Source: a virus. Taken from it: a DNA stretch of 21,208 bases. Under the pieces are notes generated by a model. It made no database searches, was not told where the DNA came from, and saw only the letters and a program-made list of their open reading frames with translations. The stretch's first letter is position 1. Each line of letters opens with the position of its first letter. The position numbers and the translations under genes were made by a program. The stretch lies in the IMG/VR virus record IMGVR_UViG_3300042470_000375, positions 1 through 21,208 of that record; one strand, 5' to 3'. This document shows, one piece after another, positions 228 to 17,730 of this stretch.

Positions 228-473
228 TTGTTACACTTATTACACATTTTATTTTTTATCTGTAACGCTCAAAAAGTGCGCTAATATTGGTGTTTACTTA
301 TTGTGTTACAGATGTTACACATTATTACACAATTAACATACTATATATATACACACACACGCACACACACGCACATATATTTTTATATAGCATTTGAAAA
401 ACGATGTGTAAATGTGTAATCTGTAACATTTATAAAATATCTATTTGATTTTCAACATAGTAACTTGTTACAC
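228..473. other. Candidate phage replication origin with iterons
   Basis: This is a dense cluster of one short motif, (T/A)TTACAC with its reverse complement GTGTAA. Copies on the plus strand lie at 228-236, 237-246, 302-310, 311-320, 321-330 and 465-473. Copies in the opposite orientation lie at 261-266, 405-411, 413-419 and 422-427. The 12-mer CTTGTTACACTT occurs exactly at 227-238 and again at 464-475. The copies at 302-330 are spaced 9-10 bases apart, about one helical turn. An AT-rich alternating tract (340-389) sits between the two oppositely oriented clusters. The block lies between the primase-helicase and a P-loop ATPase, the usual place for a phage origin. Iterons plus a melting-prone tract are known origin features; the origin role here is inferred. 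Confidence 0.55.
340..389. repeat. Alternating TA/CA dinucleotide tract
   Basis: About 50 bases of nearly perfect alternating purine-pyrimidine sequence: a TA run, then CA runs interrupted by two GCs, then another TA-rich end. Such sequence can unwind easily or adopt a left-handed form. It sits centrally in the candidate origin and could be its unwinding element. It is non-coding on both strands. Confidence 0.85.
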
Positions 474-2655: not shown

Positions 2656-2686
2656 CAAATATAAGTATTCCCTACTTAATCTGCAA
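2656..2686 (-). promoter_or_regulatory. Bacteroidota-type promoter for the primase-helicase
   Basis: On the minus strand the -7 box is TATATTTG (2656-2663), an exact match to TAnnTTTG. A TTG lies 20 bases upstream (2684-2686) in the -33 position. It sits inside the 3' end of the Gp157-like gene and points at the structured leader, which begins about 12 bases downstream. The internal position suggests that the primase-helicase can be made separately from the upstream recombination genes. Confidence 0.6.
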
Positions 2687-3166
2687 GTTGCAATTAGCAA
2701 CTATTCTGCACCCAATAATATCAGCACCATTCTTGATGGCTTCCTTGATTGCCATCTTATCTGCTTGCTCGGTAACTTTAACCACTTTGTAAGGTGCAGG
2801 AAGTTGGTTTACATCATCCACCTCAACGGCTTCCGATTTGCGAAAGTTAATCTTAACCAAGGGCGTTTTAATTTCATCAATGTTAAACAATTCCATTGCG
2901 TGCTTGATGTTCGCCTTTAAGCGCTCCGATGCGTTTTCACGTGTTTTTTTCATCGCCTGCAAACGTTTGATTTCAGCATCAATAATATCAACCTCGCTGT
3001 CGATTTGCTTTATTACAAAGGAATAAGCAACAGATTTGTTTTGGAGTTGTTCTTCAGTGATGGCTAATGCTTCGGACAATTCGGGGGTTAATTCACCCCC
3101 ATTGTCGATTAGTTCCTCTGCTAATTGGTTATAGCTTTGCTCAATTTGATAAATTGTTAGTTTCAT
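2672..3166 (-). CDS. Siphovirus Gp157-like protein
   Basis: This 164-residue protein fits the Gp157 family of phage replication/recombination modules. It has a helical, strongly charged N-terminal two-thirds with a likely coiled coil (about residues 50-95, including IDAEIKRLQAMKKTRENASERLK). A short beta-rich tail follows, holding the family-like stretches IKTPLVKINFRKSEAVEV and LPAPYKVVKV. The family's biochemistry is poorly defined; it was originally linked to phage resistance in Streptococcus and usually neighbours single-strand annealing proteins. Here it follows recT directly. The ATG at 3166 is preceded by an A-rich leader without a Shine-Dalgarno site. Confidence 0.82.
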   Translation of the reverse strand: MKLTIYQIEQSYNQLAEELIDNGGELTPELSEALAITEEQLQNKSVAYSFVIKQIDSEVDIIDAEIKRLQAMKKTRENASERLKANIKHAMELFNIDEIKTPLVKINFRKSEAVEVDDVNQLPAPYKVVKVTEQADKMAIKEAIKNGADIIGCRIVANCNLQIK

Positions 3167-3179
3167 AGTTTTTAAATTA

Positions 3180-3269
3180 TTATTTGTTAGTGATTACTTC
3201 TGTTGTCCGGATTTTATTGTTAGTTTTCGGATAATGCTTGTTTTATTGGTTAGTGATTGCTTCTGTTGT
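3180..3269. repeat. Direct repeat duplicating the 3' end of recT
   Basis: The segments 3180-3206 and 3243-3269 match at 25 of 27 positions. The second is the last codons of recT including its stop (TTEAITNQ-stop). The first, lying in the gap before the Gp157 gene, would encode TTEVITNK-stop if in frame. The duplicated stop region suggests a past local duplication or recombination with a related phage that left a remnant of a second 3' end. Confidence 0.8.
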
Positions 3270-3947
3270 GGTTTCTTTTGATGTCAATTTCGCTTTCATT
3301 TCATCTTTTGCTGCAATGACACGTAAATCTTGTTTAACATCCTTGCTTAACTTGCCCCACAATGTTTTAATCTCATCGAGTGAAACACATACTTGAATAT
3401 CATTAATAACCTCATCAACAGGTGTAATAATAACGTGTTGAGTGTCCTCTGTTTGAATGTTTTGCATTTCTTCGGGAACATAAACAGGCCCGCTGAAAAT
3501 GTCTGGGCAATACCACTTAACACCGTTGCTGATTGCGCGGGCAAATAGCATATTCTTTGGAAACTTCTCAATGTTCTTTGTTCCTGCCTTACGTGCATCC
3601 TCAATTGTGAATGTTGAGTTGCCTATTTTATCAGCACCTTGGTAAAAGTCAATTGAGCATATCTTCTCGGATGCTTCCACTACTTTATAGTCATACTTGC
3701 CACTACCTTTTAAGCGTGATGCAATTAACCCTGCTCCTATGGTTGGCTTACCTTGAATGATGTGTATGCCTGTCATGGCTGCAAAAGGTGGGATGCCAAT
3801 TTCTTGGCCTGCTTGGATTTTCACTATTGCCTGCGCTGCCGATTTCACATCGGTAAACATTCCGCTTTCGGCAAATGCCTTTGCCATGTTCATAAGTTCG
3901 CCAATTGGCAACTGTTGCACTGTTGAAACTTGTGTGTTTGTGTTCAT
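3243..3947 (-). CDS. recT: RecT-family single-strand DNA annealing protein
   Basis: The 234-residue product matches the core pattern of RecT-type recombinases. A helical start is followed by AAQAIVKIQAGQEIGIPPFAAMTGIHIIQGK (described here by its key stretches AQAIVKIQAGQEIG and GIHIIQGKPTIGA, about residues 38-74). Further on are GSGKYDYKVVE and then KFPKNMLFARAISNGVKWYCPDIFSGPVY near residues 128-156. The last 70 residues are low in conservation and Thr/Glu-rich. It probably anneals phage single-stranded DNA during replication and recombination, working with the DUF3127 OB-fold protein upstream and Gp157 downstream. No partner exonuclease is visible nearby. The start at 3947 has the recurrent AAAACCTATG leader. 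Confidence 0.85.
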   Translation of the reverse strand: MNTNTQVSTVQQLPIGELMNMAKAFAESGMFTDVKSAAQAIVKIQAGQEIGIPPFAAMTGIHIIQGKPTIGAGLIASRLKGSGKYDYKVVEASEKICSIDFYQGADKIGNSTFTIEDARKAGTKNIEKFPKNMLFARAISNGVKWYCPDIFSGPVYVPEEMQNIQTEDTQHVIITPVDEVINDIQVCVSLDEIKTLWGKLSKDVKQDLRVIAAKDEMKAKLTSKETTTEAITNQ

Positions 3948-3971
3948 AGGTTTTGTTTTTATTGGTTAGTA

Positions 3972-4298
3972 TTAAAATAAATTATCATCGCTTATTCCTT
4001 TATCACTTACCGGCACATTCTCTGTCCTGTCTATCTTCCACCCCTCAATGGAGTTGAAATACTTAACGCTGCCATCCTTGCCTTGGTATTGCTTACCGCG
4101 TAGGTTGTAGCATACGGTCACGTTATCGCCCACCATGTACTTGTCAAGCATCGAGCATTTATCCTGTGTGAATTGCACCGTAATGTGTTGTGGGTACTTG
4201 TCGGCCACTGTGATGACCATTTCACGCTTTGCGAAGTTGTCGCTTACTTGTTGCGTGTTGTAAAGTTCTCTAATTGTACCTGTGATTGTGTTTGTCAT
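3972..4298 (-). CDS. DUF3127 OB-fold protein, probable phage ssDNA-binding protein
   Basis: The 108-residue product shows the DUF3127 pattern: an ITGTIRELYNTQQVSDNFAK opening followed by KREMVITV, then PQHITVQFTQDKCSMLD (about residues 36-52), GDNVTVCYNLRGKQ (57-70) and KYFNSIEGWKI (79-89). The family is predicted to have an OB fold and is common in Bacteroidota and their phages. The end is acidic with a terminal aromatic, ISDDNLF, like the protein-docking tail of bacterial SSB. Its place immediately before recT supports a single-stranded DNA-binding role. ssDNA binding is inferred from family and context and is not shown by the sequence alone. Confidence 0.82.
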   Translation of the reverse strand: MTNTITGTIRELYNTQQVSDNFAKREMVITVADKYPQHITVQFTQDKCSMLDKYMVGDNVTVCYNLRGKQYQGKDGSVKYFNSIEGWKIDRTENVPVSDKGISDDNLF

Positions 4299-16280: not shown

Positions 16281-16720
16281 TATGAATTTATCAATGCTAT
16301 TGCAGTTTCTTCCGCAACTATACGTGTAATATCTTGCTCCTTTTCGGTAAGCAACCAAATATCGCCATATTTTTCTTCTAAATATGTAATTTTTTCATCA
16401 TTGCTTGGTGATGTGTTACCTATTGTGTAACCATTTTCAGTGGCTTTCAATGTGTAACCATTTTCAAGTTCACGTGTCAATGATGCCACAACATTCTTAT
16501 CGGCAGTTCTATTGTAACGCTCGCGCACTTTCATGTATGAATTTGAGTAAGTGCCAATCTTTGCACCCTTGCTGTTCAATCCCTCAACATGTATGCGATT
16601 TTTTAACTCGGGCAACACAGCCAATGCAGCAGCACGTGATATTGTTTCGGGGTTATCCAACTCACGAAACTTTGATAATATCGTGCCAATTACGAATGGT
16701 ATGTTGCTTGTTATCTGCAT
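16280..16720 (-). CDS. Tail completion / virion morphogenesis protein (HK97 gp10 / Mu gpG-like)
   Basis: The 146-residue product has an N-terminal helix, then ALAVLPELKNRIHVEGLNSKGAKIGTYSNSYMKVRERYN... (key stretch RIHVEGLNSKGAKIG, about residues 42-56). This RIxxxGxxSxGxxIG-Y element is typical of gp10-like/Mu gpG completion proteins. The last part has KYGDIWLLTEKEQD, like the conserved 'IF-L' segment near the end of that family. It would close the head and join the tail. It starts as TAATG at the end of the preceding gene and is followed by another overlapping start. Confidence 0.7.
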   Translation of the reverse strand: MQITSNIPFVIGTILSKFRELDNPETISRAAALAVLPELKNRIHVEGLNSKGAKIGTYSNSYMKVRERYNRTADKNVVASLTRELENGYTLKATENGYTIGNTSPSNDEKITYLEEKYGDIWLLTEKEQDITRIVAEETAIALINS

Positions 16721-17730
16721 TAAGGTATTTGACTAAAAACTTGTACTAAACTGTTGCACTCCAAACACGCATCACACTCAAACTTTAAGCCACCTAATGC
16801 GTTCTTCAATGCTTCCTCATAACGTACATTATAAAGATTGATTAACTCCTTGGCTTCTTCACGTTTGATTGATGTATAAAAATTTACACGCTCGGAGTAA
16901 AGTCGTTCTTCTAAAAATTCAATGCCCAATAGATACCAATATGCTTCGGCAAATAATAGTCTATTGTTGCATACGGCAGCGTTATATGAGCAACCGAGTG
17001 TTACTGTTGCACGTAAACTATTAATGGTGTTATTTTGAACGTAATTGCCGTTGCTTTCTGCAAAGCCGTAAATGTAACCGCATTCATCTAACCCATAGCA
17101 ATCATAAAAACATGATTGAAAGTTAGCATTGACATCCGTTGTCAAGTAGCTTACTCCATTGATGTCCGTGTCTGTGAACGCAATACCAAGCAAAGCGCAA
17201 TTAAATTCTTTTAATATAGTGATTTCATTCCAACCCAACGACAAGTCAGCCATTGTTAAAGTCTTTGTGAATAATACTTCCTTTGTTAAGTAGTTGATAA
17301 ATTCAATATCAACAGTTGTGGCCGTGTTTGTGGCCGATTTATAAAATGATATTCTATCAACTTGTAATGTTTGAAATGGACTAATAACCCAATTCTCATT
17401 CAATGACCATGCTTGCATAAACAATATGCCCTTGTAAACATCATCACTTATGGCATTCGTTTCTGGAGTGCCTGTTACCGATACCGTTCTACGCACACGT
17501 TTAATATCATAACGTGTTGACATTGCAGAAATGATTTGGTTTTTAATACGTGCTTCGGCACGCTCATTGATGGCATTCCATACGCCAACATAATTTACTT
17601 GCTCACTATTTGCTACTTGCTCAAATGATTTTAATGAAATGCCGGGCAGGCTGTTCAAAGAATAAACAGCCTGCGGCACTTCTGTAATTGAGCAACCCTT
17701 AAGTTTTACAATTCCATCAAAGCAACTCAT
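16720..17730 (-). CDS. Cys-rich virion-associated protein following the capsid gene
   Basis: A 336-residue protein with no named family that I can assign. It starts MSCFDGIVKLKGCS and contains LNSLPGISLKSFEQVAN (about residues 26-42), a pattern recalled from proteins following capsid genes in other Bacteroidota phages. Fourteen or so cysteines are present, clustered in FQSCFYDCYGLDECG (about residues 202-216) and near the end (FECDACLECN). Beta-rich and soluble. The cysteines could bind metal or form disulfides in mature virions. Its place right after the capsid gene suggests a head or neck component. It ends with a TAATG overlap to the completion protein. Confidence 0.7.
   Translation of the reverse strand: MSCFDGIVKLKGCSITEVPQAVYSLNSLPGISLKSFEQVANSEQVNYVGVWNAINERAEARIKNQIISAMSTRYDIKRVRRTVSVTGTPETNAISDDVYKGILFMQAWSLNENWVISPFQTLQVDRISFYKSATNTATTVDIEFINYLTKEVLFTKTLTMADLSLGWNEITILKEFNCALLGIAFTDTDINGVSYLTTDVNANFQSCFYDCYGLDECGYIYGFAESNGNYVQNNTINSLRATVTLGCSYNAAVCNNRLLFAEAYWYLLGIEFLEERLYSERVNFYTSIKREEAKELINLYNVRYEEALKNALGGLKFECDACLECNSLVQVFSQIP

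Follow-up and report, generated by a model that had tools for sequence, protein, structure and literature searches.

The region between the primase-helicase gene of this phage and the gene that follows it carries numerous copies of one short repeat, which raises the question whether these repeats are the place where replication starts and, if so, which protein reads them. The window, i.e. the whole stretch of DNA analysed, is an entire IMG/VR record, a phage fragment of 21.2 kb (21,208 nucleotides). Bases 220-429 are intergenic and extend from the 3' end of the primase-helicase gene to the start of the next gene. The features of the locus are as follows.

1-219: next gene, a truncated P-loop NTPase.
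229-236 and 239-246, + strand: outer iteron pair TGTTACAC and ATTACACA, adjoining the start of the downstream gene.
259-266, - strand: lone reversed iteron CTGTAACG; relatives too have one reversed site at this position.
304-310, 313-320 and 324-331, + strand: inner left array TGTTACAG, TGTTACAC and ATTACACA, with spacings of 9 and 11.
342-380: strictly alternating purine/pyrimidine tract of 39 bases; the + strand reads TA first and CA after it, and no alternating run of the contig is longer.
404-411, 412-419 and 421-428, - strand: inner right array ATGTGTAA, ATGTGTAA and CTGTAACA, with spacings of 8 and 9, reversed with respect to the left array.
466-473, + strand: outermost iteron TGTTACAC, within the 3' end of the primase gene and part of an exact 13-mer repeat.
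430-2583, - strand: primase-helicase of 717 amino acids, with BT4734_N primase, PriCT_2, VapE-like helicase and C-terminal winged helix (Pfam/PHROG).
484-690, - strand: C-terminal winged-helix domain, residues 632-700 approximately, the predicted iteron reader (AlphaFold models; coupling to the iterons).
505-522, - strand: wing codons for R688 (520-522) and T693 (505-507), the counterparts in the alignment of the two residues with the strongest coupling to iteron sequence.

About ten 8-mers of the TGTTAC(A/C) or ATTACACA form are present within positions 229-473. An earlier note on this DNA had counted about ten motif copies within 250 bases, and their coordinates hold. The count over the whole contig which it proposed gave seven of the 19 copies of TTACAC and six of the 22 copies of GTTACA in these 246 bases (1.2% of the length), so that the two motifs are about 50 times and about 32 times commoner here than elsewhere. 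In Markov shuffles of the iteron region these counts were reached in at most 0.08% of runs. The repeat cluster is genuine and functional-looking.

Two sets of iterons, at 304-331 (+) and 404-428 (-), flank the central tract. The description of left copies as pointing one way and right copies the other is correct for these inner arrays, which are inverted, but the rule is broken by a - copy to the left of the tract (259-266) and a + copy to its right (466-473). An alternating tract is indeed found in the middle, although its strictly alternating part measures 39 bases and not the 50 first reported, and the exact 12-mer repeat, whose second copy does lie inside the primase gene, is actually a 13-mer, ACTTGTTACACTT, at 226-238 and 463-475. 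The outermost iteron is at the same place in nearly all close relatives. Cumulative GC skew, considered as a further test for an origin, climbs almost monotonically, nearly all genes being on one strand; as transcription in these phages runs almost entirely along one strand, it is uninformative here.

The primase-helicase matches PF08800, PF08707 and PF05272 (BT4734_N, PriCT_2 and VapE-like) above the Pfam cut-off. Its full-length model is modest in quality, with a mean pLDDT of 66, while the core of the C-terminal winged-helix model reaches a pLDDT of 88-94. In structural comparison with the PDB, the whole protein comes closest to PriRep1 from a staphylococcal pathogenicity island, with double-stranded DNA (7pds; Foldseek E 4.5e-9), which is also matched by profile (E 1.7e-11). 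For the winged helix alone the best fold match is the RFX DNA-binding domain (1dp7 and 8zjr; Z 8.3 and 7.3). The RFX domain uses its wing for base contacts, and reading of DNA by the wing is also what the coupling described below suggests; RFX is a eukaryotic transcription factor, and the resemblance is one of fold only; no kinship is claimed. The alpha protein of phage P4 is likewise a fused primase-helicase, whose C-terminal winged-helix origin-binding domain reads short repeats, and P4 uses two separate sites, ori and crr. The P4 domain (1ka8) matches the present winged helix weakly (Foldseek E 0.28, Z 5.8), and P4 differs in having two sites where here there is one cluster, in being a helper-dependent satellite and in the phylum of its host. 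In the window the primase gene is preceded by genes for Gp157-like, RecT-like and ssDNA-binding proteins (2672-4298), in a compact replication module.

Relatives were collected by a primase-based scan, which gave 66 loci, by scans with relatives, which added about 80 loci in a distant clade, and by a genome scan, which found 11, all but one in records from Bacteroidota; these records include Flavobacteriales, Chitinophaga, Saprospiraceae, Flavobacterium, Pedobacter and Mucilaginibacter. IMG/VR records are mostly fragments. Repeat clusters were found by an unbiased, motif-blind search for 7-mer clusters. The automatic motif finder returned a wrong or weak motif in L003, L021, L042 and L064, which were removed by hand; with L005, L013, L044 and L047, also left out by hand, bad or weak calls number eight in all.

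In about 120 relatives, compared as the earlier note had proposed, the place of the densest repeat cluster is almost always the same: on nearly every contig it is found within about 60 bases of the primase stop or, in clade B, directly upstream of the primase start. In clades A and C, as in the window, the cluster is immediately 3' of the primase gene, and in clade B (L037-L045, L049 and L283; 62-66% identical) directly before it. Clade C (about 36-38% identical) has the CA strand as its sense strand, with the tract at stop+110-130 rather than stop+50; judged by eye from array order and distances, the whole layout appears inverted relative to the gene. The relatives keep the layout, with inverted arrays on the two sides of a central tract and a reversed site standing alone; about twenty different iteron sequences fill it. 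They include TGTTACA, TCTGTAAC, GGTTACA, ATTACAC, TGTTGCA, GTTGCCAC, GTTGTCC, GCTGTCCA, GCCTGTCC, TGGTGCA, TGATGCA, ACCCCTAC, GTCGCA and CTTACCACC, and there are more.

Some loci deserve separate mention. The cultured Flavobacterium phage mumin6-4 (L070) has about fourteen GGTAAC/GTTACC sites at 16303-17210, downstream of its VapE gene, grouped in inverted orientation on both sides of an AT-rich stretch, and this cluster is a likely origin; in phi46:1 no obvious iteron cluster was seen beside the primase. In L285, from Chitinophaga polysaccharea, thirteen repeats of the GCGCGAACC type are located at about 1-340, some 6 kb upstream of the primase stop. L286, a contig of a Peregrinibacteria MAG, carries a clade C primase, GTGCAAC iterons and a 42-base tract, and is probably a Bacteroidota phage contig wrongly binned. 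Two contigs carry two divergent primase-plus-origin copies each, near opposite ends and in the same orientation (L006 and L036 on IMG/VR 3300042310_000167, 39.6 kb; L219 and L280 on 3300008259_000070, 40.0 kb); these are either strains joined in assembly or true double replicons.

The iteron letters change together with the winged helix of the neighbouring protein. Among 62 distinct clade C proteins, the distances between iterons correlate with those between winged helices when the helicase core is controlled for (partial r 0.37; 0 of 500 permutations), and not with those between cores when the winged helix is controlled for (partial r 0.014; 111 of 500 permutations). Since permutation tests leave some shared ancestry, 31 disjoint nearest-neighbour pairs were added, for which the Spearman coefficient is 0.79 for the winged helix (p 1.4e-7) and 0.42 for the core. 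A Mantel test on all 109 proteins gave a partial r of 0.09 for both winged helix and core; it did not discriminate, probably because of saturated distances, and the clade of 62 proteins was used instead. When 368 variable columns were scanned, the winged helix, which supplies 47 of them, contained 19 of the 20 most coupled, and the two strongest correspond to residues 696 and 691 of L217 (T693 and R688 of the window), both in the wing hairpin. From this coupling we infer that the iterons are read by the C-terminal winged helix of the primase, their predicted reader.

At position 688 clade B proteins have Lys with TGTAACC; two distinct lineages pair Cys with TGTAATA, and a third pairs Met with TGTAAT. 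A one-letter code, by which a hydrophobic residue 688 goes with T after TGTAA and a basic one with C, fits L037-L045, L049 and L283; it was rejected, as L051, L130 and L139 have K with TGTAAA and clade A tolerates C or T. Because of these exceptions the pattern is a lead and not a code.

In near-identical phages the recognition domain and the candidate origin have also been exchanged as one unit. Between L214 and L218 identity is about 95% over 1.9 kb of the primase gene; it is 42-77% across the winged-helix codons and the origin, and 97% on the far side. In the pairs L217/L216 and L232/L235 there are 3-4 residue differences in the C-terminal region compared, and identity drops in the wing and the origin only.

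The closest known systems are the origins of SaPI and other PICI elements, used by Rep or PriRep (PriRep1, 7pds; SaPI5, 7ola). SaPI Rep uses its C-terminal domain to recognise iterons that immediately follow its gene, and apparently does so as two hexamers (PMC7581432); PICI origins lie 3' of rep and have an AT-rich region between two sets of iterons (PMC6092414). Like them, the present loci have a homologous VapE-type helicase, a candidate origin placed 3' of its gene, a central element between two inverted sets of iterons, and iterons that differ between relatives; recognition by the C-terminal part of the protein, likewise shared, is here predicted from coevolution. The present loci differ in serving autonomous tailed Bacteroidota phages and not satellites, in an origin that precedes the gene in clade B and is apparently inverted in clade C, and in the central element, here a long alternating tract. 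They are probably a variant of the PICI kind of origin, working like one, and are not part of a PICI, because the complete relative G001 (34 kb, with end repeats) has its own capsid and tail genes, encoding terminase, portal, major head protein, sheath and tape measure; the window encodes an endolysin and a protein with a weak tail-protein match. In view of the organisation shared with PICI/SaPI origins, the earlier label of a new origin type was too strong. In SCCmec, the helicase Cch2 loads itself, and its C-terminal domain binds short direct repeats that closely follow the gene (PMC7581432); the putative origin of Cch2 differs in having only three AAGTG iterons, with no alternating tract described (PMC7581432), and Cch2 belongs to the D5/SaPI5-like helicase branch.

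Taken as a whole, the cluster is best explained as a candidate replication origin of a tailed Bacteroidota phage, which we regard as very probable. The proposal of an origin beside its replication protein is supported by the conserved position, the layout kept while the letters change, the coevolution with the winged helix and the homology to SaPI initiators. Two of the checks named in the earlier note, on motif density elsewhere and on the presence of the iterons in relatives, also turned out in its favour. The same repeats could instead be an operator array, bound by the primase-helicase or another regulator to control the following gene and without origin function: the region is the intergenic DNA upstream of that gene, whose start is adjoined by the outer iterons. 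This is improbable, since the following gene differs between phages with almost identical primase genes (the window, 1-219, and L002; L008 and L014) while the array stays, which places a module junction exactly at the outer edge of the origin. Moreover, the clade B array sits upstream of the primase, an array of about ten sites, grouped in opposite orientations on the two sides of a 40-base tract, is more than an ordinary operator would have, and homologues use the same layout as an origin. Such exchange points at the array borders, and the fact that packaging sites can hold repeats, would also suit a packaging or recombination site bound by terminase or recombinase. Given that the letters coevolve with the winged helix of the primase, that the array stays beside the primase and that the terminase gene of G001 is located elsewhere, we consider this explanation very improbable.

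For the tract alone, a further explanation has to be weighed, compatible with an origin: a neutral microsatellite, produced by slippage at an origin in which the iterons alone matter. It would account for the richness in CA/TG, for a length that varies from 23 to 53 bases (median 42) among 78 distinct tracts, and for several relatives with intact iterons and no tract. Against it, all 78 remain strictly alternating although their units change (CA, CATA, TATA, CG), at a nearly fixed distance from the primase stop, and on opposite strands in two clades with 37% protein identity. Of the 121 loci with sufficient sequence beyond the stop, 106 have their longest alternating run in this region, the longest run elsewhere on the same contigs having a median of 11 and a maximum of 20 bases; on the window contig the next longest run is of 15 bases. 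We therefore rate neutral slippage as unlikely, though a good deal less so than the two alternatives to an origin. Being absent in clade B, in L051, L064 and L065 and in the three cultured relatives checked (P12024S, phi46:1 and mumin6-4), the tract is a lineage feature and not universal.

Duplex stability lends no support to the earlier view of the tract as an unwinding element: at -1.249 kcal/mol per step it is near the contig mean of -1.290, and the least stable 50-base windows are elsewhere. The 100 bases from position 375 are among the least stable on the contig. In a crude supercoiling energy model, whose output is taken as a hint, the tract is the most Z-prone site of the window, and Z-form competes with melting only in small topological domains or under moderate stress. 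A Z-prone or flexible element fits the tract better than an unwinding element.

The course of initiation proposed here is the following. The C-terminal winged helix of the primase-helicase, mainly through its wing, would bind the 8-bp iterons, and the inverted arrays would load the protein in opposite orientations on the two sides of the tract, probably as two hexamers. The tract may absorb negative superhelical stress, as Z-form or flexible DNA, and so aid the opening of the adjoining AT-rich DNA; the helicase domains would then unwind outwards and the primase would prime, giving bidirectional replication. A more far-reaching proposal, which is tentative and for which we see somewhat less than an even chance, is a Bacteroidota-specific origin in which the conserved Z-prone tract is a working part, wing and iterons form an exchangeable cassette, and residues 688 and 693 partly set the iteron letters as a readable code.

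In the literature searched, replication origins of Bacteroidota phages appear to be undescribed. The finding supplies a testable origin for a group of freshwater phages and indicates that an origin of the PICI plan can occur outside satellites. The 62 proteins and iterons of one clade are a natural data set for how a winged-helix initiator chooses its origin, and the conservation of a 40-base alternating tract in the middle of an origin raises a question of non-B DNA, namely why it is kept. Practical uses may include minimal replicons for Bacteroidota and the study of incompatibility or exclusion between coinfecting phages. If the more far-reaching proposal is true, the wing-iteron cassette would give a readable code for new origin specificities.
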